Shown in pieces: positions 3,169-38,990 of a stretch of 39,121 nucleotides of DNA. The notes below the pieces were generated by a model that was not told where the DNA came from, searched no databases, and was given only the letters and a program-made list of their open reading frames with translations. Every line of letters starts with the position of its first letter. Positions within the stretch are counted from its first letter, which is position 1. The position numbers were made by a program, and so were the translations under genes. The stretch spans positions 1 to 39,121 of the forward strand of contig PHGD01000047.1 of assembly GCA_011090425.1 (NCBI GenBank), given 5' to 3'. Source of the stretch: Nitrospira sp. LK70 (GTDB lineage: Bacteria > Nitrospirota > Nitrospiria > Nitrospirales > Nitrospiraceae).

Positions 3169-6100
3169 ATGTTGCGGGTCGTTTCCGGTCGGTTTCATCC
3201 CGATTTAGAATCTGCTCTTGTCGAGCGTCTCACGTGTATCAAGGCAAGGGATTTCCTTGCGTCCATCGCGATCTTCGTTCCCTCCAAGCCACTAGCCGAC
3301 CGTGTTCGCACTTTGCTTGGAATCGAACACCGGCTGTCTTTCCTGAACCTACATGTCTTGACCTTCCATCAATTGGCTCTCCGACTGGCCGGAGAAGTAC
3401 CTGTCGGCCAACGGTTGCCCCGGATCGTTGACGAGCTGTTCTTCGAACAATTGGTCCGTCACATTGTTCGCAGCAAATTTTCCAGCCAGGCTCCCTTACA
3501 ACGGCTCAGGCAATCCTCTGGGACATGGAGCGCGCTTTGGGCGACGATTCGCGATTTGAAGGATGCCGATGTCGATCCAGTACAGGCGCTCCAAGGCCTA
3601 GGTGAAGGCTGTTTTGGAGAAGATGATCAGGAATGGCTCAGCGCACTGGTTTCACTCTTTGCGGCAGTGAAGCAAGCGGGCAAGACGCTTGGGGTCGGAA
3701 CGCAAGACGATCTGGCCGAGGCGCTGATCCACTTTGCCCCGACTGCCTCGTTCCTCCAACCATTGAGGGAAGTGTTCTATTATGGGTTCTACGACCTGAC
3801 TCAGGTGCAGCTGTCGCTCTTTGAAGCGATCAGCCGAGCGAAGGACACGACATTATTTTTTCCGCTGGAGGACGTTCCGGTCTGTGGATTCGCCCGGCGC
3901 TTTTTCGATCGCTGCATCCAGCCGCTGGTGAGGTCAGACGAGGCGATGATCCGATTGGAGCAGAAATCCTCCACCGCGGCCGAACCTCCCGTCCAGCTCA
4001 CTATTCGGAGTGTGATCGGGGCAGAAGAAGAATTGGCGACAACGTGCCGCACGATTCTCGATTTGGTTGAAACCAACGGGTATCGATTCGAGGAGGTCGG
4101 CGTCACTGCCAGGACGCTCGATCCTTACAGTCTGCATCTCCAATCGATCTTCGGTCGACATCGCATCCCCTTTCGGACGACCGCCTCGCAGCCATTGATT
4201 CAAGAACCGATCTGTAAACTCGTGTTGCAGTTGGCCTCCCTGCCGTTGAACGATTTCTATCGCGCGTCGGTCCTCGATGTCGTGACGTCTCCGCTCTATG
4301 TCACTGATTTGCGCGACGAGCTGTCGGAGTCATACCGATCCGAACAGTGGAAGCTGCTCGTTCAAACCCTGCACATCACTCATGGAGTCGAGGAGTGGAA
4401 ACGGTTGGAGCAAGCGAGCCAAGCTTCGCTGGTCCTGGAAGGCGAGGAGAGTCTCGTTGATTCTATGGCGATTGCGCCTGAGGTGATCAGTCTGCTTTGG
4501 CAGGTGGTCTCACAGCTCACACAGGACTGTTCGGCCCTTCCATCACGAGGCACGATCGGCCGGATGGTCACGGCTTGTCGGGCTCTCGTTGATCGGCGTC
4601 TGCGTCGGCCTGAGTCAGTGGAATCGAGCACCGAAGCTATGCAGCTTACGCGCCAAGCCGTGACGTGGGAAGCCATCGATCGCATTTGGAGCACCCTTCT
4701 GGAATTGGAGTCGCTCAATGAGGAGCTGACTTGGGCCGAATTTGTCGAATTGCTGACGCATACCTTCGAGAGGACGCCGAAGCCTTTGCCGGATGGCTCA
4801 CCACAGGGAGTGATGGTATACGACGTCATGGCGATTCGTGGGGTGCCGTTCAAAGCCCTATTCGTCCTCGGCCTGAACGAAAAAGTCTTTCCGCGTTTTA
4901 TCCGAGAGGATGCATTCTTGCGTGATCGCCATCGGCTGGTGCTCGACGCCACGCTCGGATTTAAGATCGACGAAAAGTTGACCGCGTATGGAGAAGAGGC
5001 GTTGCTCTTCCACCTCTGTTGTCAGGCTGCCTCTCAGCGCCTGTACCTATCCTATCAGCGGGCCGATGAATCGGGGCGCATGCTGGCCCTGTCTCCCTAT
5101 CTCGGAGAAGCTCGCCGGCGGTTCCGCCAAGATCAGCAACCGAGTGATGTAGTGCCCCGTCGCCTGACGGATCGAGTCTCGCAACGGCCGACGATCAAAC
5201 GGTTCCTGTCGCCGGCTGAACTGAGTCAGTGGTTGGCGATCAGTGGGGAAGACCCGACCGAGCTGGTACAGGCGCTCGGGCGTGACGCGGATACGTACCG
5301 CCATGCGGCATCGGCGCTCGATCGAATCGAAGAGGATGGCGCAATGTTGAATCTCTTCGATGGGATAACAGGGATGGTCGAGTCCCATTGGACGAGGGTT
5401 ATGGAACGGGGCCTCGCCCCGACGCCGCTCGAACGGTATGCGCGCTGTCCCTTCCAATATTTTGCCGCCGATGTGCTGCGACTCGAGCCGAGCCGCGTTG
5501 CGATTTCACAGGAACCGGATGCAGCGCTGGTCGGTACGCTCTGCCACGCTGCATTACGAGGTGCCTATGAACGGCTTGTGAAGGAAGGATGGCCGACCGA
5601 ACCAGTGACGGGCAAGACGGTGGAGCAGGCGATCCGTGTGTCGGTGGAGCAAGCGGCGGCGAGCTTGGAGTCACAATATCGGACAGGCCACTATCTGCTG
5701 TGGGAGTTGGGGAAGGAACTGGTTGTGAGGCTTGTGTCCGAGGCGGCGAAAGAGGAAGAGGGTAAGCAAGCAGAACACCCGTGTATACCTATTGCCTTTG
5801 AAGTGGATGGAACAGGAACGGTTCCCGGCGTCCTCGATGATGGGTCGTTGAAGATCCGTGGTCGCATCGATCGGCTTGATCGGAATCGAACCACCGGCGC
5901 ATTACGTGTGGTTGACTACAAGTTCAAGGTCGGCTCATCCATGAAACCGGAAGACCGTAATCTGGCTCAATCGGCAGTCCGTGGGTATCGGCTGCAACCA
6001 CCACTCTATAGTTGCCTCACCGTTTCAGGACAGTCCACAGCGAGCCAGGTGCAGTTTCTGTTTCTCGCCCCTCGGTGGTCAACGTCAATCTGTCGCTCGA

Positions 6101-6339
6101 CGTTTGAGGCGGTGTCATGGTCATCCGATACCGGCACAGTCATCCAGAACACGATTAGAACGTTGGTGGATGGTATCCGTGCCGGACGATTTTTCATTCT
6201 TCCGGATGGCTATTGCGAAGGATGTGAATTTCGCGTGGTCTGTCGGAGGGAACATGCTCCGACTTGGTGGAGGGCCCATCGTGCGGCAGAACCCAAAACC
6301 CTGAAGATGCTTCGCCTGCAGAAGATTGACGATGAATAA
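3169..6339 (+). CDS. AddB-like PD-(D/E)XK nuclease subunit
   Basis: A 1056-residue protein resembling the AddB/RexB partner of AddAB-type double-strand-break repair enzymes. The N-terminal half is a UvrD-like fold without a Walker A motif: the opening phrase VVSGRFHPDLE replaces the GxxGxGKS loop, so it is probably not an active ATPase. The C-terminal part is a RecB-family nuclease: GRIDRLDR near residue 897 and VVDYKFK near 914 supply the catalytic Asp and Asp-x-Lys. A cysteine at ARCPFQYF (about 759) and three in YCEGCEFRVVC (about 1014-1021) match the four ligands of an AddB-type Fe-S cluster. The stop overlaps the AddA-like start by eight bases, pointing to translational coupling. Confidence 0.85.
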   Translation: MLRVVSGRFHPDLESALVERLTCIKARDFLASIAIFVPSKPLADRVRTLLGIEHRLSFLNLHVLTFHQLALRLAGEVPVGQRLPRIVDELFFEQLVRHIVRSKFSSQAPLQRLRQSSGTWSALWATIRDLKDADVDPVQALQGLGEGCFGEDDQEWLSALVSLFAAVKQAGKTLGVGTQDDLAEALIHFAPTASFLQPLREVFYYGFYDLTQVQLSLFEAISRAKDTTLFFPLEDVPVCGFARRFFDRCIQPLVRSDEAMIRLEQKSSTAAEPPVQLTIRSVIGAEEELATTCRTILDLVETNGYRFEEVGVTARTLDPYSLHLQSIFGRHRIPFRTTASQPLIQEPICKLVLQLASLPLNDFYRASVLDVVTSPLYVTDLRDELSESYRSEQWKLLVQTLHITHGVEEWKRLEQASQASLVLEGEESLVDSMAIAPEVISLLWQVVSQLTQDCSALPSRGTIGRMVTACRALVDRRLRRPESVESSTEAMQLTRQAVTWEAIDRIWSTLLELESLNEELTWAEFVELLTHTFERTPKPLPDGSPQGVMVYDVMAIRGVPFKALFVLGLNEKVFPRFIREDAFLRDRHRLVLDATLGFKIDEKLTAYGEEALLFHLCCQAASQRLYLSYQRADESGRMLALSPYLGEARRRFRQDQQPSDVVPRRLTDRVSQRPTIKRFLSPAELSQWLAISGEDPTELVQALGRDADTYRHAASALDRIEEDGAMLNLFDGITGMVESHWTRVMERGLAPTPLERYARCPFQYFAADVLRLEPSRVAISQEPDAALVGTLCHAALRGAYERLVKEGWPTEPVTGKTVEQAIRVSVEQAAASLESQYRTGHYLLWELGKELVVRLVSEAAKEEEGKQAEHPCIPIAFEVDGTGTVPGVLDDGSLKIRGRIDRLDRNRTTGALRVVDYKFKVGSSMKPEDRNLAQSAVRGYRLQPPLYSCLTVSGQSTASQVQFLFLAPRWSTSICRSTFEAVSWSSDTGTVIQNTIRTLVDGIRAGRFFILPDGYCEGCEFRVVCRREHAPTWWRAHRAAEPKTLKMLRLQKIDDE

Positions 6340-9300
6340 CGATCTCCTGGTATCGGATCGCATCGATCGCAACGTGGTCGTCGTAGCAGGAGCAGGGACA
6401 GGCAAGACGACCTTGTGAATCGTCTCGTGTATCTGCTCATGAAAGAGCCCAATCCGGTCATGATTACGCAGGTCGTCGCCCTGACGTTCACCAACAAGGC
6501 GGCGACCGAAATGAAAGTACGGTTGCGCGAGCGGCTCGCCGTTCTCGCCTGCCCGGAGGCCGATTCGATACGATCAAGCGATGGGGGGGCTGTCTCATGC
6601 AGCGATCTTCAAGCAAGATATAGACTGAGCATCGGCGAGATCGCCGCTCGTGCTCAGGCGGCACTCAACGACATTGAAAAGGCTCAGATCGGTACCCTGC
6701 ACAGTTTCGCCGCGCACCTATTAAGACTCCATCCGCTGGAGAGCGGAGTCGATCCTGATTTCAAAGAAGACGACGGCTTGCGGTTTGAAGAGCAGTTCAC
6801 CGCCGCGTGGGATTGCTGGCTCGATCATGAATTGAGCCGAGCCGGACAACAGCATCATCTGTGGCGATCGGTCTTGTCGCCGACCACTCTCGAAGCGGTC
6901 AGCGCGTTGGCCCGGTCCTTGTGCAGCGAATTAATTGATCTCACTACCCTGCAAGAGCAAGTCGAATCGACGGCAGTGACGCCGGCCATCTTGCATTGGA
7001 TCCAACACATGGAAGACCGGGCGAATCAGCTCATGAAAACCTATGATCGGCCGAAGCGCCGTAAGGTCGAGCATATGCTCGTTGCGACGGCGTCTCTGAT
7101 GCGGCTTGTGGCCGCAAAAGGATTGCCAGGTCGGCAAGACTTGACGACGGCAGAAGGAGAATGGCTCGGCAAGGATCTCGGAAGCGCTGTGGCCGGATGG
7201 GAAAAGGGCGATTTCAAAGAGGCCGCTTTGTTCATCCAGACGGCGCAACAGCTTCTGTCGGTCGATCATGCATTCTTGAACGATCTCCTGAACCTCCTCA
7301 TCCCGCTTGTGCGGAACATACGCGAAACCTTTGCTCGGCAAGGCTGGATTTCGTTTGATGGGTTGCTGGCACGGGCGCGGGCGCTCCTCTTCGAACATCC
7401 GTCTGTCCGTGAACGGATCAAACGGGACTATCGAGCCGTGCTGGTCGATGAATTTCAGGACACGGACCCCGTGCAGTACGAAATCATCCTTGCCGTCTCG
7501 GAGCAGCAGGGCAGCCAGGCGCCTGACTGGCAGGCGATGCGGCTCGAACCGGGGAAACTCTTCATTGTCGGAGATCCCAAACAATCGATCTATGCCTTTC
7601 GCCGTGCCGACATCGAAGCCTTCGACCGAGTCGTGGAAAAAGTCACGGCTGATGGTGGAGCGATCGAGACGTTGACGACGAATTTCCGAAGCGATGCGGC
7701 AGTCTTGGAGCCGGTGAATGAGGTCTTCGATCGGCTGTTCGAACGGAAGCCGCTGGTCCAGCCGGCGAATGTCCGCCTGGAGGTGCGCCCTCAGCGACGA
7801 TCGGCCTCGATCGAGCCGGGCGTTCGTCTCAGCGTGACAATCCCGGACGGTGAACAAGAGACATTCGATGCGGCGGGAGCGACGAGGGCCGAGAGCGAAG
7901 TGCTGGTTCGCTGGCTGACTGACGAGGTCCTGAATCGTCCTTCCATGAAACCCGGCCACGTGGCGTTGCTGTTTAGAAAGCTTACGCAAGCCGATGCCTA
8001 CCTCGATGCCCTGCGTCGGCACGACATTCCGTACATCATTGAAGGGGAAAAGCATTTCTATCGCCGTCAAGAGGTGATCGACCTCGTCAATTTGCTGCGG
8101 GTCTTGGATCATCCTCATGACGAGATCGCCTTGACCGGCCTCCTTCGTTCACCGCTTGGGGGGCTAGCTGATGGGGAACTCTATGAGCTCAAGCAGGCAG
8201 GGTGTTTCAATTATCTCGATGCGAAGCGCCTGGAGGGATGGCCCCATACCTGTGCCGCAGCAGTTCGGCGACTGTACGAGCACCTGGCTTGGCTCCATCG
8301 GGCCATCGCTGTGCTGCCATTGGTTGAGGCCATCGAACTGATGTTTGACCGATTGCCGATTCTGGATTTGGCAGCCGCATCGCTGCATGGCGAACAGGCC
8401 GTAGCGAATCTCATGAAGGTCAAACAGACGGCTGCCTCATTAGCCGACCGGCCCCACATGACCTTGAGTGGATTTGTGGAGCTTATGATCGCCAGGCTTG
8501 AAGAACAACCGGACGAATCGGAGAGCCCTCTCGCTGAGGAGTCGCTCGAGGCCGTGCACGTCTTGACGATTCATAAAGCCAAAGGCTTGGAATTTCCCGT
8601 TGTGGTGCTGCCGGGCCTCCACCAGGGGAGCGGGCGGGAGCGGAGCGTGCCGCAGGTCTCGTACGATTGGTCGAGTGGAACCTATGGGCTTTCTCTGGAC
8701 CGTCATCGATCCCTCGGCTCGCTGCTGGTCCAACACAAGCTGCGGCTTCGAGAAGAGGCGGAACGGCGACGGGTGCTCTATGTGGGGATGACCAGGGCTA
8801 AGGAATTGTTGTTGTTATCGGGAGGGATGACGAGCCGCTCCGTCGGTGAAACGGTTTTCGACCTATTGCAGAACATCGGTACGGGGGAGATCGGAACAGC
8901 CTCGACCGAGGCCTTGAAGGTCGGCGGATGTAGGATTCCTCATCGCGCCGTTGCGGCACCGAAACGAAAGTCGCCACGTCGACGTTCTGAAAGCGTAGGT
9001 AGCGCGTCATTGATCGATCCAGAGGAGATTGCCTCGCTGTGGGAAGCAAGGGCCGCTCGATGGACCGAGATTCGTGAGACCCCACATCATCTGACGCCCA
9101 CGAGGCTGGGTAAGCGAGGGGTGGTCATACGTGAGACGACCCCTGTTCGACAGGATATGGAGATCGGACGATTGGCCGGAGTGGTGGCGCACCACCTGCT
9201 CGAGCGATGGGATTTTTCACAGGACCCTTCCGGGTTACTTTCTCATGTTGATTCAGCCCTTCGATCTGTCCTTGGACCAGACGAACAACCTAGAGCTGGA

Positions 9301-9645
9301 GCGGTCGCTGACTCCATGAACGATCTCCTGGTGACGTTCGGTCGATCTGAGGCCTATGCACGTCTCCGCTCATCCCAGATCCTCGGCCGTGAAGTTCCGT
9401 TCATCATGCCGTGGGAGGACAGGCAAGTCATGGAAGGAGTCATTGACCTCATCTACCGGCTTGATGGAGAGCTCTGGATAACCGACTATAAGACGGACAT
9501 GGTATCGCCGGATCAAGCGTCGGCTCGGGCCGAGCAGTACCGCACACAGAGTGAGATCTATAAGGCTGCTGTAGAGCAGGGACTGGGAATCAAGCCGCGT
9601 TTTCACTGTCTGTTTCTGCGATGTGCGACGGTAGTAGAATTATAA
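6332..9645 (+). CDS. AddA-like UvrD helicase-nuclease, frameshifted in Walker A
   Basis: Frame 1 begins at the ATG at 6332, overlapping the AddB-like stop, and encodes VVVVAGAGTGKTTL before a TGA at 6416. The protein continues in another frame from GTG 6415 for 1076 residues (VNRLVYLL onward). Adding one base at about 6415 restores the normal helicase sequence TTLVNRLVYLL. All other motifs are present: TFTNKAATEM (Ia), VDEFQDTDPVQ (II), VGDPKQSIYAFR (III), TTNFRS (IV), VLTIHKAKGLEFPVVVLP (V), RVLYVGMTRAKE (VI), and a C-terminal RecB-type nuclease with GVIDLIYR and ITDYKTD. With the AddB-like protein it would process DNA ends for recombination. Taken as written, the long frame lacks the ATP-binding lysine; a sequencing error or a recent mutation are both possible. 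Confidence 0.85.
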
Positions 9646-20961: not shown

Positions 20962-21207
20962 CTATTTCGCCTTCTTCACAAACGCCTTATAGATGGGGCC
21001 CGACTTTGCTTGTTCCTCCTCCAAGCCCATCATTTGATGCCCCGTGGTTTCACACCAAGCCGGCATGTCTTTCTTGATACCCTCGTCGTCGGAGACGACT
21101 TCCAGCACCTGTCCCAACGCCAATTCTTTGATTTTCTTGGATGTGAGAATAATCGGCATTGGGCAAAAGTATCCCACGGTGTCCAGTTTGACATCGGCCT
21201 GCATCAT
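20962..21207 (-). CDS. tusA: TusA-family sulfur carrier protein
   Basis: An 81-residue protein with the TusA/SirA hallmark near the N-terminus: LDTVGYFCPMPIILTSKKIKEL, where Cys in CPxP carries the persulfide. The strand VLEVVSDDEGIKKDMPAWCETTGH follows as in the family. GAGGGTGG before the start is a good ribosome-binding site. TusA proteins relay sulfur for tRNA thiolation, molybdopterin cofactor and dissimilatory sulfur metabolism. It sits 28 bases downstream of a DsrE2-like gene and ends in a terminator, so the two form a small operon; that pairing is common in sulfur-relay loci. Confidence 0.92.
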   Translation of the reverse strand: MMQADVKLDTVGYFCPMPIILTSKKIKELALGQVLEVVSDDEGIKKDMPAWCETTGHQMMGLEEEQAKSGPIYKAFVKKAK

Positions 21208-21235: not shown

Positions 21236-21769
21236 TCAAATGAACAGATTGACATTGCCCTGTTTGGCCTCCGCCAGATACGTAGTCACGCCTGCGAACT
21301 GATCGATGCCGTCGATCAACGTATTCTTGGTAATGCCCATGAGGCCCATCGTCGTCGTGCATGCGATGAACCGCACCCCCAGATCGAGGGCCGTTTGCAT
21401 CAACTCAGGCACGCCCGGCATCCGGTTTTGCTTCATCACCGTCTGCATCATCTTCGTTCCCAACCCCGCGAAGTGGAATCGGGACAACGGCAGTGCGTCG
21501 GCGCCACCCTTGTTGAGCAGCCCGAACATCCGTCGAAGCCAATCTTTGGCCGAACTCGTAGCTCCCCGTCTCCGAATCGTGTTCAATCCCCAAAACGTAA
21601 AAAACATGGTCACACGCATACCCATCGCAGCAGCGCCTGTGGCTATGATAAAGGCCGCCATCGCCCGATCGAGATCACCACTCAGCAATACGATCGTGAC
21701 TCTCTCGGGCTTGGATTCTTGCAGTTGTGCCAACGTCGTCGTCGGCTCGATCTGTTGTGTGGCAATCAT
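21236..21769 (-). CDS. DsrE2-like (DsrE/DsrF/DrsH family) protein
   Basis: A 177-residue protein with good GAGGTGAG ribosome-binding site. It contains ERVTIVLLSGDLDRAMAAFIIATGAAAMGMRVTMFFTFWGLN, the core of DsrE2-type proteins, and a long helical insert before the later strand RFIACTTTMGLMGITKNTLIDGID. The cysteine in IACTTTMGLMG sits where DsrE2 proteins have the sulfur-binding cysteine. The hydrophobic helix in the first segment may hold it at the membrane. DsrE2 pairs with TusA and rhodanese proteins as a sulfur donor/acceptor. Here it is the first gene of a two-gene operon with tusA; no sulfur-oxidation enzymes are nearby. Confidence 0.88.
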   Translation of the reverse strand: MIATQQIEPTTTLAQLQESKPERVTIVLLSGDLDRAMAAFIIATGAAAMGMRVTMFFTFWGLNTIRRRGATSSAKDWLRRMFGLLNKGGADALPLSRFHFAGLGTKMMQTVMKQNRMPGVPELMQTALDLGVRFIACTTTMGLMGITKNTLIDGIDQFAGVTTYLAEAKQGNVNLFI

Positions 21770-21873
21770 GATCTCACCTCATCACACGCTCAACTTCTGC
21801 GCATGGACAGAATAGTATGTGATCCTTGGGGGTGTCAAGGAACCGGGTAACCGCGCAACCGTGTTGACATTGC

Positions 21874-22275
21874 TTGATCAATCGCCATCTTCTCGATATA
21901 GTCACAATTCATCGGACGAACCTGTCTCGCGAGTTTTCTCCCTATCGAAAGACCCTCGTCATCGAACAGCCATTGCCCGAGGTTGCACCTTCGAAGAGTC
22001 GTCCCCCCGTTGGCTTCTGGTACCCGGCCGTGCCCGGTCATACCCTGGGCCCGAGCACGATGAAGAGGCCGCAGGTGCTCGGGTTGCCGATCGTTCTCTG
22101 TCACGATCGAGCGGGTGGACTCGTGGCGATGCGTGATATCTGTCCGCACCGTGGTATGCTCCTGCCATTCGGCCGGTTCAACGGTGAACGAGTGGAATGT
22201 TCGTATCATGGTTGGCAGTTCGACTGGAAGGGACGCTGGCGAAAATGTTTCTCGGCTAGGATCAGTGGACGATGA
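21874..22275 (+). CDS. Truncated Rieske [2Fe-2S] protein
   Basis: The frame from TTG 21874 encodes one Rieske domain with all four ligands: CPHRGMLLPFG (Cys and His) and CSYHGWQFDWKG (Cys and His), preceded by PPVGFWYPAV. That arrangement is typical of the N-terminal domain of Rieske-type ring hydroxylases. It stops soon after the second ligand pair (GRWRKCFSARISGR), whereas a complete hydroxylase runs on for about 200-300 residues with a mononuclear iron site, so the gene is broken or was cut down to a ferredoxin-like remnant. A 58-codon frame starting in its last codon may be a displaced tail. Divergent from dsrE2-tusA. Confidence 0.6.
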   Translation: MINRHLLDIVTIHRTNLSREFSPYRKTLVIEQPLPEVAPSKSRPPVGFWYPAVPGHTLGPSTMKRPQVLGLPIVLCHDRAGGLVAMRDICPHRGMLLPFGRFNGERVECSYHGWQFDWKGRWRKCFSARISGR

Positions 22276-22448
22276 CCCGCCTGGCGGTAGGACTTCACCA
22301 CAGACCCTCGTCGATGTTTCTCGGCGATGCCGATATACCGGAGAACTGGTACTCCATGCTGAGAGCGGCCCATCCGGCAGCCGTGCAAACAGGCCGGCCT
22401 TTTGATCATCCGGTCAAAGAACGAGTGATGCTCCGGTGGCGAAGCTGA
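22272..22448 (+). pseudogene. Possible displaced tail of the Rieske protein
   Basis: A 58-codon open frame starting at an ATG overlapping the Rieske stop. Its reading (FLGDADIPENWYSML, then RAAHPAAVQTGRPFDHPVKERVML) looks protein-like. It overlaps the start of the next gene by a few codons and has no ribosome-binding site. I read it as a leftover of the same original gene, but do not recognise it. Confidence 0.3.
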
Positions 22449-23095
22449 CTGCGCTCTTTCGGCTGTTGTTTATGCTGACGGTGGCGGTCATGCCTACGAT
22501 ACCGTCGTATGCCGGAAGCTCCAAAATCGTCTCCGTCCCGACGTTGGGCGTACTGGGTGAGGATCTTCCCGGTGTTGTGAACTACATCTTAGTTCAGCTT
22601 GATCACGTGGCTGGGCATAGCGGCCCTACCGTTGAGTTCAATGAAATCAACTTGGGAGGAGGATCCGTCGTCGGCGAAGAGTGGAAGGAAGGTGCCCGCC
22701 GAGCCCTGCGTGCCGTGACCCATACTGTGGGTGACAGCGGTCATGATTGGTTGATCACGATCAAAAATCGCTCTGTGACGTCTTTGACCGACGGGATGAG
22801 CGCCAGCGCTGCCGTTGCGGTGGCGATTATGGCAGCCTACCGAGGAGATGTGATCAGATCGGAGGTTGCCCTATCAGGCCAGATCACTCCGGATGGTCGT
22901 GTAGATGTGGTAGGAGGGTTGCCCGTGAAAATTGAGGCTGCCGCCAACGCGCATTACCGAACAATCATCGTCTCTCGGGATCAACCGCTCACCCCGGATT
23001 GGGTAGACGCGACGGATGTTGCCTCTCGCAAGAGAGTCCAGCTCATTCAAGTAGGCACACTGGATGAAGCCTACCAAGCGATGACGATACGCTGA
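22436..23095 (+). CDS. Exported stand-alone Lon-type (S16) protease domain
   Basis: A 219-residue protein from the GTG at 22436, with a signal peptide (KLTALFRLLFMLTVAVMPTIPSYA). There is no AAA+ ATPase domain. The rest is the Lon proteolytic domain: TDGMSASAAVAVAIMAAY carries the catalytic serine in DGxSAS, and VDVVGGLPVKIEAAANAHY supplies the catalytic lysine in GGLPxK. Lon itself is cytoplasmic and needs ATP to unfold substrates; an exported domain without the ATPase must act in the periplasm on unfolded proteins or by itself in another way. A second start at ATG 22472 would shorten the signal only. Intact active site seen; activity inferred. Confidence 0.78.
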   Translation: MAKLTALFRLLFMLTVAVMPTIPSYAGSSKIVSVPTLGVLGEDLPGVVNYILVQLDHVAGHSGPTVEFNEINLGGGSVVGEEWKEGARRALRAVTHTVGDSGHDWLITIKNRSVTSLTDGMSASAAVAVAIMAAYRGDVIRSEVALSGQITPDGRVDVVGGLPVKIEAAANAHYRTIIVSRDQPLTPDWVDATDVASRKRVQLIQVGTLDEAYQAMTIR

Positions 23096-23346: not shown

Positions 23347-25356
23347 CTAGTCTTTGCCCTGATTTGCCAGGATAAACCCCATGGCTCGTCTGATCTGATC
23401 GCGCGTTCCCAGCAGTACCACAATGTCGCCGACAAGGAGTTTGGTTTTCTCCGAGGGGTTGGATTCCGTGACGCCGTTTCTGGTCAGGGCGATGATGGAC
23501 GTTCCGATTCGCGGCCGCAACGCCAGTTGAATGATCGTTTTTCCAGCCGCCGGTGAATCCTCTTCGATTCGACAGGTCTCTACTTCGACATCAGCGAGGG
23601 TTCCGCCGCGAAGGTGATGAGCCAGTTCGGGGACCTCGCTGCGGCGGAGCAGCGCATACCCTTCTCGACGCACCTGTTCAGCCTTTCGCGTGATGAAATC
23701 GTGCGGCATGTTGTAGGTGCGGAGGACGAGTGCAAAGATTTCAATCGACGTTTCGAATTCTTCCGGCACGACGTCATCGGCGCCTAGCTGATGGAGTTCT
23801 TCCAATTCCCGCAAGTAACGGGTTCGTACCACGATGTGGATCTTAGGGTTCAAGCCTCGAGCCGCCTGCACGGCTCGCCGAGTCATGAATGGATCGGAGA
23901 TGGCGATGACCAGAACACGCGCATCTTCGATTTTCACGTGCCTCAAGACAGTCGGGTTTGTCGCATCTCCATAGTAGAGCGGCAAGCCGTGAGCCGCTTC
24001 TCGGCGCACCGTATCTCCCTCCAAATCCAACGCGATGTAGGGCACTTCCGTCTCACCCAGTACACGGGCCAGGTTGCGTCCGTTGAGCCCATACCCCACG
24101 ATAATCACATGGTCTTTGATGCGTAGATGCCTCCCCTCTGCCTCGAGTACATGGGCTGTCGTCTGCCCGGGAAACCAATGGTGCAGTCGCTGCACGGCCT
24201 CAACACGCCGGGCGAGATGCGGGGATACCTGCATTAAGAACGGCGTGATGATCATGGAGCAGACCGAGACCGCGAGGAAGATTTGGTATGGCGGCCCCGA
24301 CAAGAGCTGATTGTCCAAGCCGACCTGTGCCAGGATAAAACTGAATTCACCTACCTGGGCGAGGGCAATTCCAGTCATGACGGCCGAGCGAGGAGGCACG
24401 GAGACCGCCAACACGGCTCCCGTTCCAGCGCTGAACTTTAGGAGCAGTACGACGAGTAACACACCGGTCACGACGAGTGGATACTCGAGCAGGATGCGCC
24501 AATCCATCAAGATGCCGATGGAGACAAAAAACAGGCTATTGAAACTGTCTCGAAACGGCAACACGTCGGCGATGGCCTGGTGACTGTACTCCGATTCGGA
24601 AATCACGAGCCCGGCGATGAAGGCTCCTAAGGCCAGGGACAGCCCGCCGAGAGACGTCAGCCACGCAATGCCGAGACACATAACAATGATGGTCAACAGG
24701 AAGAGTTCACGGCTTCGGCTACGAACGATGTGGTCGAGTAATTTCGGAACCACATACCACGCGGCTGCAACAATGCATACGACCACCACCATCGATTTCA
24801 TCAACGAGAGCAGCGCTGGTGTCAGCGTCCCGTCGCCGTGGCTGGCCAGAATAGGCGTCAGCAAGATCATCGGGACGACGGCCAAGTCCTGGAAGATCAA
24901 GATCCCGATGGTGGCTCGCCCGTGGGGTGAATCGCTGTCTCCACTGGCGGCCAACGCTTTCAAGACAATCGCAGTGCTGCTGAGGGACAGCAGAAAACCC
25001 CAAAAGATCGCCTGAGGTGTCGGTAATCCTGCCAGTATGCCGCCGAGCCATGAGATTGCGATGACCCCCCCGACTTGGATCGGAGCGGCAATCAAGAGCA
25101 GCCGACGAAGCGAGGTCAGTTGCATCAGAGAAAATTCGATACCGATGGTAAACAGAAGCAGCACAATCCCGATTTCCGCCAGCACGTGCACTGTTGCGAT
25201 GTCGGAGATCAGGTTGAGTCCATGAGGACCGATCAAAGCCCCGGCGACGAGAAAGCCGGCGATAGACGGCAGTCGGAATTGATGAAACAGAAACACCACC
25301 GCGATAGATACGGTGTAAATGAGCACCAAATTCCCGAGTACGCTGTAATCCGTCAT
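23347..25356 (-). CDS. CPA2 cation/proton antiporter with TrkA domains
   Basis: A 669-residue protein of the KefB/RosB type. The N-terminal half is about twelve membrane segments of a Na+/H+ exchanger fold, from VLIYTVSIAVVFLFHQ and GFLVAGALIGPHGLNL to the GLALGAFIAGLVISESEY segment. It is followed by a TrkA_N domain (DHVIIVGYGLNGRNLARVL with a GxGxxG nucleotide-binding loop, then YYGDATNPTVLRHV) and a C-terminal TrkA_C domain (LRGGTLADVEVETCRIEE to LLVGDIVVLLGTRDQ). The family exchanges K+ or Na+ for protons and is gated by NAD(H) and other ligands through TrkA domains. It stands alone, convergent with the Lon-like gene. Confidence 0.92.
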   Translation of the reverse strand: MTDYSVLGNLVLIYTVSIAVVFLFHQFRLPSIAGFLVAGALIGPHGLNLISDIATVHVLAEIGIVLLLFTIGIEFSLMQLTSLRRLLLIAAPIQVGGVIAISWLGGILAGLPTPQAIFWGFLLSLSSTAIVLKALAASGDSDSPHGRATIGILIFQDLAVVPMILLTPILASHGDGTLTPALLSLMKSMVVVVCIVAAAWYVVPKLLDHIVRSRSRELFLLTIIVMCLGIAWLTSLGGLSLALGAFIAGLVISESEYSHQAIADVLPFRDSFNSLFFVSIGILMDWRILLEYPLVVTGVLLVVLLLKFSAGTGAVLAVSVPPRSAVMTGIALAQVGEFSFILAQVGLDNQLLSGPPYQIFLAVSVCSMIITPFLMQVSPHLARRVEAVQRLHHWFPGQTTAHVLEAEGRHLRIKDHVIIVGYGLNGRNLARVLGETEVPYIALDLEGDTVRREAAHGLPLYYGDATNPTVLRHVKIEDARVLVIAISDPFMTRRAVQAARGLNPKIHIVVRTRYLRELEELHQLGADDVVPEEFETSIEIFALVLRTYNMPHDFITRKAEQVRREGYALLRRSEVPELAHHLRGGTLADVEVETCRIEEDSPAAGKTIIQLALRPRIGTSIIALTRNGVTESNPSEKTKLLVGDIVVLLGTRDQIRRAMGFILANQGKD

Positions 25357-36180: not shown

Positions 36181-36548
36181 GGTAAAACCTCTGGAAGTTT
36201 GCTGAACACTTGTCTGGCATCTTCACAGCCGAACAAGCCTGCTTCCGTAACCGCTCTTACTTATGGTATCTATGCGGATACATGGCGTATCTGAAATGGG
36301 CATCACCGGATGGCGAGCACCCCTCATCATCGGTTACGTCACTCCACTAAGCGCTGCTCCAGTTATTCGCTGAACAACCACTTCACGAATGCACAGACGC
36401 GCAGGGGGCTGTCCTCTGCCGGCATTCTCATTGCTCACGTTGGGAAAACCGTTGGGTCAATGAAAAGCTCATTTACCAGTACGGCGTGAAAGGCATTCAC
36501 TGCGGAGGCTTTGGCTGTATAGCTCCATCGCAGATGATGTCAACGTGC
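36181..36548. other. Gap upstream of the TIR gene
   Basis: About 370 bases between the hemD fragment and the TIR gene. Fragments of open frame on the plus strand (WYLCGYMAYLKWASPDG near 36265, and RWVNEKLIYQYGVKGIHC near 36450) look protein-like but are short and broken by stops; I do not recognise them. They may be relics of a mobile element or another gene. No promoter or RNA is clear. Confidence 0.4.
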
Positions 36549-38990
36549 ATGGCTGATCGATCACCAACTCACTTCGATGTCTTTCTCAGCTACCACTGGC
36601 GCGACCGAGAGCCGGTCGAGCGCATCGCGCGATCACTCCGCGATCAGGGGCTCAAGCCATTCCTCGATCGCTGGTATCTCGTCCCGGGCAGGCCCTGGCC
36701 ACAGGTGCTGGAACAGACGCTGGTTTCGTGCCGGGCGGTCGCCGTGTGCATTGGACCCGGAGACATGGGACCATGGCAGACACGGGAATCAAACTTTGCG
36801 CTGGATCGGCAGGGGCGCAACGCGGACTTTCCTGTCATCCCCGTCTTGCTGCCGGGCTCGGATCCGGTGCTTGGCTTCCTTAGCCAGAATACCTGGGTCG
36901 ATTTGCGCCAGGGCACGGATGATCCGGGGTTGCTTTCGCTGCTTGCCGGAGCGATCCGAGGTGAAGCGCCCGGACCGGATCTTGCCGAACGTCTCAGAGT
37001 CACCCGTGCGACCCTCTGTCCTTACCGCGGCCTTCTCTATTTTCGAGAAGAGGATGCCCCGTTCTTTTTTGGGCGGATGGCCGCAATCCGAAATCTCCAT
37101 GAGGCCATCCGGCAGCAGCGGTTCATCGCCGTCGTGGGGGCATCGGGCTCCGGCAAGTCGTCGGTCGTGAGAGCCGGCCTCGTCCCGCGGCTACGGCAGG
37201 AGAAGGAAACGACCTGGGAAGTCGCGACCCTGTTTCCTGGCGATGAACCGCTGAAGGCTCTTGCGCGATCGGTGTCTCCGCTCCTTGAGCCGGAAACGAT
37301 GGATGAAACAGATCGCCTAGTGAAGATCAACAAGCTCGCGGAGGCCTTCGCGAAGCAAGACGTCAGCCTGCACGACGTCGGCCTGCGCATCTTGGAAAAA
37401 CAATCGGGAACGAATCGGTTGTTGCTCGTCATCGATCAAGCCGAGGAACTCTATACGGTCGCGAAAGATGATCACACAGGCCGCCGGTTCATCGATGAAA
37501 TGCTCGATGCCAGCGAGAGAGGCTCATGGACCGCGATGCTCACACTCCGCGGGGACTTTGTCGGAAAGGCGCTTTCCTATCGCCCGCTCTCCGACCGACT
37601 GCAGGGCGCGCAGGTCAATGTGGGACCGATGACGCGAGCCGAATTGGAGCAGGCCATCACGGCCCCGGCCCGACGCGTCGAACTGTCCTTTGCCGATGGT
37701 CTGGTGACCAGGATCCTGGACGACGTCGGTGATGAGCCGGGCCATCTGCCCCTGCTCGAGTTCGTGCTCAAACGCTTGTGGGAGGACCGCCAAGGGCCGG
37801 AGCTGTCGCACCAGGCCTATGAAGCCATGGGCGGGTTGCAGGGAGCCGTGGCGAAGAAGGCCGAAGAGGTCTTTGCCAAGCTCACTCCCCCGGAACAAGA
37901 AGCGGTCAAACACGTCTTCCTTCAGGTGGTCCGAGCAGGCGAAACCGGTGAGGATACCCGCCGCAGAGCGGCGCTCTCAGAAATCGGTTCGGCCGCGATG
38001 GACGTCGTCAAGAAACTTGCGGACGAGCGACTGCTCGTCACGAATCGCGCGGTGGCCGGAGAAGAGACCGTCGAAGTCAGTCACGAAGCGCTGATCCGCC
38101 AGTGGCAACGGTTGCAAGGATGGCTGAATGAGGATCGTGAGTTTCTGCTGTGGCGGGAGCGGCTGAGAGGGCGCGTGAATGAATGGCAGCACAATACACA
38201 GGACGAAGGCACGCTGCTCCGAGGTGCCTTGCTGGTGGAGGCGCAACGCTGGGTCTCTCAGAAAGCAGACATGCTGACCGATGAGGAAAAGGACTACATC
38301 CGGCACAGTGTGGAGGCTCGTGAACGGGCGGTGCAGGCGGAGCAGCAGCGGGCCGAACACGAGCTGACACAGGCGAAGCGCCTCGCGGAGGAAGCGGCTA
38401 AACGTGAAGAAGCCGAACGGGCGCGAGCCGCAGCGGCAGAGCAAGCGCAGAAGGCGGCGGAGAGTGCTCAGCAACGATTAAAGTATCTCATCTTGGCGCT
38501 CGGGATCCTCATTCTAGGGATCGTGATGATTGTCTGGTTAGGGAAGGAGGGAATAACGGTTCAATATGCGAGGTCGATCGTGCTGGCCCGATTGCATCTG
38601 GTGTCTGTGTCGGAGCCGGAAATGGTCACGATCTCGGGAGGAAGCTATCAGCAAGTAGATATCCGTGGTCTAGGCTCCAAGGATGAACAACCTGTTCGAG
38701 CGGTGACGATCAAACCGTTCGCCATGGGCAAGTATGAGGTGACCTTTCAAGAGTACGATCGGTACGTGGAGTTGACTGGTGACCGATCGCCGACTGATGA
38801 ATCATGGGGGCGAGAGAAGCGTCCCGTGATCAATGTCTCGTGGGGAGATACGGCGGCATACGCCAAGTGGCTGTCTCAAGCAACGGGCAAACGGTATCGG
38901 CTTCCGAGGGAATCGGAATGGGAATATGCCGCACGCAGTGGGGGAAAAGATGAAGTCTGGGCTGGGACCTCCGACGAGAGACCTGTATGA
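36549..38990 (+). CDS. TIR-nSTAND ATPase-transmembrane-FGE-sulfatase protein (C-terminally truncated)
   Basis: 813 residues from ATG 36549, just before the TIR fold; in-frame starts at 36486 and 36534 are possible. Domains in order: TIR (1-140: FDVFLSYHWRDRE, FLDRWYLVPGRPW, CRAVAVCIGP); nSTAND linker CPYRGLLYFREEDAPFFFGR; ATPase with Walker A VVGASGSGKSSVVRAG (196-210) and Walker B LLLVIDQAEEL (about 290); helical region; alanine/glutamate-rich coiled coil (about 590-640); a transmembrane helix LKYLILALGILILGIVMIVWLG; and the start of a formylglycine-generating-enzyme-like domain (VTISGGSYQQV to SEWEYAARSGG). The FGE part is cut after about 125 residues where the family has about 230. Such STAND proteins are linked to phage defence and programmed death. 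The catalytic acid of an NADase-type TIR is not clear, so this TIR may signal instead of cut NAD+. Confidence 0.85.
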   Translation: MADRSPTHFDVFLSYHWRDREPVERIARSLRDQGLKPFLDRWYLVPGRPWPQVLEQTLVSCRAVAVCIGPGDMGPWQTRESNFALDRQGRNADFPVIPVLLPGSDPVLGFLSQNTWVDLRQGTDDPGLLSLLAGAIRGEAPGPDLAERLRVTRATLCPYRGLLYFREEDAPFFFGRMAAIRNLHEAIRQQRFIAVVGASGSGKSSVVRAGLVPRLRQEKETTWEVATLFPGDEPLKALARSVSPLLEPETMDETDRLVKINKLAEAFAKQDVSLHDVGLRILEKQSGTNRLLLVIDQAEELYTVAKDDHTGRRFIDEMLDASERGSWTAMLTLRGDFVGKALSYRPLSDRLQGAQVNVGPMTRAELEQAITAPARRVELSFADGLVTRILDDVGDEPGHLPLLEFVLKRLWEDRQGPELSHQAYEAMGGLQGAVAKKAEEVFAKLTPPEQEAVKHVFLQVVRAGETGEDTRRRAALSEIGSAAMDVVKKLADERLLVTNRAVAGEETVEVSHEALIRQWQRLQGWLNEDREFLLWRERLRGRVNEWQHNTQDEGTLLRGALLVEAQRWVSQKADMLTDEEKDYIRHSVEARERAVQAEQQRAEHELTQAKRLAEEAAKREEAERARAAAAEQAQKAAESAQQRLKYLILALGILILGIVMIVWLGKEGITVQYARSIVLARLHLVSVSEPEMVTISGGSYQQVDIRGLGSKDEQPVRAVTIKPFAMGKYEVTFQEYDRYVELTGDRSPTDESWGREKRPVINVSWGDTAAYAKWLSQATGKRYRLPRESEWEYAARSGGKDEVWAGTSDERPV

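Follow-up and report, generated by a model that had tools for sequence, protein, structure and literature searches.

A predicted exported Lon protease domain without its ATPase in Nitrospira, one of several stand-alone S16 lineages in the order Nitrospirales

The window analysed here is a contig of 39,121 nucleotides from Nitrospira sp. LK70 (GenBank assembly GCA_011090425.1, contig PHGD01000047.1). At positions 22436..23095 of its forward strand it carries a gene, opening on a GTG codon and encoding 219 amino acids, for a stand-alone S16 domain (the protease domain of Lon) that is predicted to be exported. Residues 1-26 (22436..22513, + strand) form a predicted Sec signal sequence, for which cleavage is proposed after S-Y-A, and the proposed mature chain (22514..23092, +) corresponds to a complete S16 protease domain. 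The codons of the putative catalytic residues, placed by alignment, are those of Ser122 in the motif DGMSAS (22799..22801, +) and of Lys165 in GGLPVK (22928..22930, +). A convergent gene for a KefB-type cation/H+ antiporter follows (23347..25356, - strand), and on the other side lie genes for a divergent DsrE-like protein (21236..21769, -) and a TusA sulfurtransferase (20962..21207, -), all three named by Pfam. Between these and the S16 gene is a remnant of a Rieske oxygenase gene (21868..22445, +), broken in frame and lacking about residues 157-349 of 420 when compared to the intact 420-aa copies found upstream of the orthologue in other Nitrospira. The remaining neighbours among the 20 window open reading frames scanned by Pfam include the flavoprotein and Fe-S subunits of a succinate dehydrogenase-like complex, an endonuclease III, an FTCD, a CCG/HdrB-like protein, an epimerase, one protein with no match and one with a weak metallo-beta-lactamase-like match under the cut-off. 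Further away, a PD-(D/E)XK nuclease (weak ADDB_N match) adjoins a UvrD helicase/nuclease in what resembles an AddAB-like pair (3169-9645, +), and an 834-aa protein with TIR, nSTAND1 NTPase and FGE-sulfatase-like domains (36486-38990, +) has the appearance of a defence or signalling protein.

The 219-aa protein belongs to the S16 family by both sequence and predicted fold. Lon_C (PF05362) is matched at 40.3 bits (cut-off 21.1; E 3.4e-10), and a sequence search of the PDB at E <0.1 retrieved Lon proteases only, led by A. fulgidus LonB (1z0c), E. coli Lon (1rr9) and T. onnurineus Lon (3k1j). Pfam detects no AAA+ module in the chain, as an earlier note made from the DNA letters alone had recognised, which sets the protein apart from the ATP-dependent Lons (LonA, LonB and LonBA). 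No PDZ domain is matched at E 0.01 and no further domain was found; a large N-terminal AAA-like region of the LonC type is likewise absent, the domain beginning near residue 30 of only 219. None of the NCBIfam models claims the protein, the best reaching 44 bits against a cut-off of 723. The AlphaFold2 model, computed with a 25-row alignment as input, has a pLDDT of 88.6 and a pTM of 0.82, and its residues 30-219 superpose on the protease domain of E. coli Lon (1rr9) with Z 24.3 at 2.2 A over 174 residues. This top score is tied with 3wu6 and closely followed by 6on2 and 8dvh (B. subtilis LonBA), and chains of RadA and BrxL share the fold. As the match covers the whole length beyond the leader, the protein is a complete protease domain to which nothing has been added.

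The earlier note had also read the S16 serine and lysine as intact, and the alignment bears this out. Ser122 and Lys165 are 43 positions apart, leaving 42 residues between them, the same number as given for the dyad of LonA and LonB in PMC9569914, and both are invariant across the 25-row alignment, in which identity to the window protein falls to 24%. Among 62 stand-alone homologues (the 64 stand-alone sequences from the loci fetched, minus the incomplete L011 and L022) the catalytic serine is kept in 61 and the lysine in all 62. The single exception, in L105 (5334-6017), has threonine in place of the serine and retains the lysine, and is either a natural Ser-to-Thr or an inactive variant. Position 147 is occupied by Thr in 36 and by Ser in 26 of the homologues, and from its spacing we take it to be equivalent to the Lon threonine that contacts the catalytic lysine. 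The residue before the serine, on the other hand, is of eight kinds (Met 18, Pro 12, Asp 12, Ala 6, Arg 5, Glu 5, Ser 3 and Thr 1). When nine orthologues were each compared with the window sequence, the mature region gave dN/dS values of 0.09-0.19, the value of 0.19 against the closest relative (L045) being rough since few substitutions separate the two. Judged from these ratios, the mature part is under purifying selection, also where the upstream oxygenase is a pseudogene, and the invariant dyad together with the low dN/dS excludes chance as an explanation.

The N-terminus of the protein reads MAKLTALFRLLFMLTVAVMPTIPSYA followed by GSS, with basic residues at K3 and R9 and with S-Y-A just before Gly27. 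It contains a run of 20 residues free of D/E/K/R/H/N/Q, compared to runs of 7-14 in 13 further proteins of the window for which no leader is predicted, while the hydropathy peak separates poorly (2.35 for the S16 leader, at most 2.05 in ten controls, 2.6 in the transmembrane antiporter). The structure matches begin at model residues 28-32, which places the leader outside the domain. Among the 62 homologues, 56 reach a hydropathy of at least 1.8 in the stretch of 65 residues that precedes the domain; among the six below, L091 fails narrowly (1.75), and the other five possess an extra N-terminal region, with the leader further upstream and N-termini that are leader-like by eye. By the stricter charge-free run, 45 of the 62, with the window protein at 20, exceed the best control (14) and 17 do not. 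The lowest six here comprise four from the group with the extra region, in which the 65 residues before the domain are not the true N-terminus, and two f2 orthologues (L017 and L018). In all nine pairwise comparisons, with the window sequence always one partner, dN is higher for the leader than for the mature chain, and the leader stays hydrophobic; signal sequences usually show such a higher dN. Directly after the start, (A/E)-K-L is kept in ten aligned genus orthologues, nine of which have S-Y-A, A-Y-A, A-H-A or V-W-A at the signal peptidase position (L041 is less clear). Leaders of a similar kind, though unrelated, are found on stand-alone S16 proteins from other families of the order, and another S16 lineage (L035, L031, L106, L107 and L108) has an extra, Cys-containing N-terminal region between leader and protease domain. 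The signal peptide put forward in the earlier note thus finds its support at the sequence level, in the charge-free leader and S-Y-A, and from this composition and the A-x-A-like site we infer export, an extracytoplasmic location and cleavage after residue 26.

In its own genome (G000; 4.7 Mb, 201 contigs) the window gene is the single member of stand-alone size. Lon-sized frames of 839 and 889 aa are located on other contigs, and Lon_C also matches inside frames of 527 and 466 aa. With the window protein as query against 35 genus genomes, 11 were matched at E<1e-70, and in a twelfth a contig-end piece was found (E 1.4e-27). The exact lineage of the gene is patchy, occurring in 12 of the 35 and missing from 23, and is therefore dispensable in many. 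A survey of 295 genomes of the phylum, using a profile built from several stand-alone lineages, found strong matches (E<1e-24) in 90 of the 98 Nitrospirales genomes (37/40 in the genus, own genome included; 37/39 in the rest of the family; 16/19 in the remaining order) and in none of the 197 others (0/15 in the remaining class, 0/182 in the remaining phylum; best 1.7e-20). Measured from stop to stop, the frames that hold the strong ones among the matches listed span 177-455 aa. For 15 of the 197 outside genomes, which were searched again, the listed matches fall in Lon-sized frames of at least 670 aa, except for one contig-end piece of 115 aa. The trait is concentrated in Nitrospirales, as far as this phylum is concerned, but eight of the 98 order genomes without a strong match speak against a strict order-wide rule. 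So do G037, G040, G043 and G046, from a further family (f4) of the order, where the single protein, used as the query, matched at 1.8e-6 at best. Three genus genomes with no strong match were also searched again, and one of them (G159) has a weakly matching frame of 126 aa with an inner stop, perhaps a decayed S16 copy. Plasmids gave no match to the S16 protein, and in PHROGs the sole match was to a long profile of unknown function (33.5 bits).

A tree was computed from 83 rows, the 62 stand-alone sequences and 21 of 22 Lon domains, the remaining one being too short. In it the Lons group as a single clade, set off by a long branch (1.46; support 100/100). The window lineage is one clade of 37 rows (99/95), inside which families f2 and f1 are separate. 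The rest of the stand-alone lineages stand apart, and one of them, with five rows, is attached on the Lon side. Several of the joins between long branches are flagged as unsafe, and no single origin is claimed for all stand-alone lineages.

The gene neighbourhood was surveyed on the 29 contigs of the window lineage, partly as a search for an AAA+ partner, the conserved companion whose discovery would have undermined the earlier note. The most constant neighbour is the KefB-type antiporter gene (27 of 29 contigs), which is absent in L054 and cut off by the contig end in L062, is truncated in L043 and lies 1.3 kb off in L045. The DsrE and TusA genes recur upstream on 26 contigs, being missing in L042 and L054, with L041 beginning at the S16 gene. 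Oxygenase sequence is found directly upstream on 21 contigs and is absent on seven (one contig starts at S16); it is broken in three of the 21 (the window, L045 and L096), with a similar deletion in L045, the closest relative. The oxygenase stop overlaps the S16 start by 13 nt in L036-L040 and L043, which suggests translational coupling. An obligate partnership is nevertheless rejected, as the S16 gene persists where the oxygenase is broken or absent and is therefore independent of it. In L043 a deletion (5001-5820) seems to have taken the end of the S16 gene and most of the KefB-type gene. When neighbours were clustered all-against-all and representatives named by Pfam, no AAA+ gene was among those recurring across the 29 contigs; Pfam matches neither cluster c7 nor an 838/879-aa frame on three f2 contigs. 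Nor did the sequences give evidence of a cytoplasmic location, the other finding that would have counted against the earlier note. The P-loop proteins of the window are about 13 kb or more from the S16 gene (the UvrD-type helicase at 6415-9645 and the nSTAND1 protein at 36486-38990). A replacement of DegP-type proteases was also considered and rejected, the genome having one S41 match and 11 to Trypsin_2, ten of them above the cut-off.

The domain, its dyad, the leader, the purifying selection and the lack of a recurrent ATPase neighbour are consistent with a periplasmic, ATP-independent Ser-Lys endopeptidase acting on short or unstructured substrates, which we regard as the probable function. 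Synthesised with a Sec signal, the chain would leave the cytoplasm unfolded and lose the signal after residue 26, and the bare protease domain would then fold as indicated by sequence and predicted structure. Going by conservation, Ser122, activated by Lys165 and perhaps aided by the hydroxyl at position 147, would cut the peptide bond. With no unfoldase, only short, unstructured or already unfolded chains would be taken, by analogy with MtaLonC and SepM (see below). Assembly into a ring, as in other Lon protease domains, is probable and constitutes the weakest step of the scheme. Several such lineages of exported S16 proteins would exist in Nitrospirales, probably differing in their substrates, and that of the window protein appears to have descended mainly vertically beside the KefB-type antiporter gene, with many losses.

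The same leader could instead remain uncleaved and anchor the protease domain in the membrane, facing the periplasm as proposed for YlbL and cleaving membrane-bound partners. It is long enough for one membrane helix, and YlbL itself has a predicted transmembrane segment and acts on a membrane protein that is mostly extracellular, according to PMC6051672; the A-x-A-like site at the signal peptidase position in nine of ten genus orthologues and the few residues between leader and domain argue against anchoring, which we consider rather unlikely. That the protein stays in the cytoplasm, its leader being an artefact of start choice that an internal Met would remove, is very improbable. Internal start codons do exist within the leader, and the GTG start overlaps the oxygenase stop in six relatives, but the start and (A/E)-K-L are kept in ten orthologues, the leader remains hydrophobic though its sequence drifts, and similar but unrelated leaders occur on the stand-alone S16 proteins of other families.

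The protein might also be exported and act as a binding or assembly module, without proteolysis. RadA uses a Lon-like domain in this way, and the fold common to the RadA and BrxL chains, together with the threonine of L105, agrees with such a role. Under it, however, the near-universal retention of serine and lysine down to 24% identity in the 25-row alignment would be difficult to explain, and since the neighbour before the serine varies freely the dyad itself seems to be selected; a non-proteolytic role is accordingly given little credence, less than the anchor. As an endopeptidase, the protein would be among the smallest Lon-type enzymes possible and a native test of the protease domain without its ATPase, including ring formation and active-site switching, and Nitrospirales would gain an envelope protease family that Pfam and NCBIfam do not name as such. 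More speculatively, and with considerable doubt, envelope proteolysis in this order may draw on several exported lineages of bare Lon domains, forming self-compartmentalised rings with neither unfoldase nor PDZ domain, beside the Trypsin_2 (DegP-like) and S41 proteases.

Lon is normally an intracellular, ATP-consuming protease. Exported S16-like proteins of archaea constitute COG1750, and SepM of Streptococcus carries a PDZ domain; literature searches for COG1750 and for SepM with Lon and PDZ found nothing, nor did searches of the open-access literature for Nitrospira with Lon or S16, or for a Lon-like S16 domain with a signal peptide. The S16 label of SepM derives from the name of NCBIfam NF041438, against which the Nitrospira protein scores 13.6 bits with a cut-off of 200. 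SepM is described as extracellular, trimming a 21-mer pheromone to 18 (PMC8545107), and YlbL of Bacillus subtilis as combining S16 and PDZ domains, a putative Ser-Lys dyad and a predicted transmembrane segment with no AAA+ module (PMC6051672). YlbL and CtpA are the two proteases proposed there to degrade the outward-facing inhibitor YneA, and its discoverers regarded the absent ATPase as logical outside the cell. The earlier note, which called Lon-type proteolysis outside the cytoplasm uncommon, was thus half right: YlbL and SepM are precedents, and stand-alone S16 proteins are common in Nitrospirales. The Nitrospira protein shares with YlbL the S16 domain, the putative Ser-Lys dyad and the lack of AAA+, and its signal-like leader would place it outside the cytoplasm, where YlbL is likely to work; it differs in having no match to PDZ or any other domain. 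No activity of YlbL lacking its membrane segment could be detected in vitro (PMC6051672), and it follows that an activator may be required by bare S16 domains. MtaLonC of Meiothermus degrades unfolded substrates without ATP (PMC3391209) and shares the S16 domain (Z 19.6 to the model), whereas LonC retains a large, degenerate AAA-like portion and, according to PMC9569914, is a soluble enzyme of the cytoplasm. The fold of the protease domain, the Ser-Lys dyad and its spacing are those of LonA and LonB, from which the Nitrospira protein differs by the lack of AAA+ and N-domain, by its leader and by the Met before the catalytic serine, which is Pro in LonA (PMC9569914). From YlbL, SepM and MtaLonC the principle is already known, in each case with further domains, while the Nitrospira protein is a bare protease domain. 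What seems to be new, as far as sequences tell, is that such bare domains, PDZ-less and predicted to be exported, make up a widespread family of several lineages within one order.
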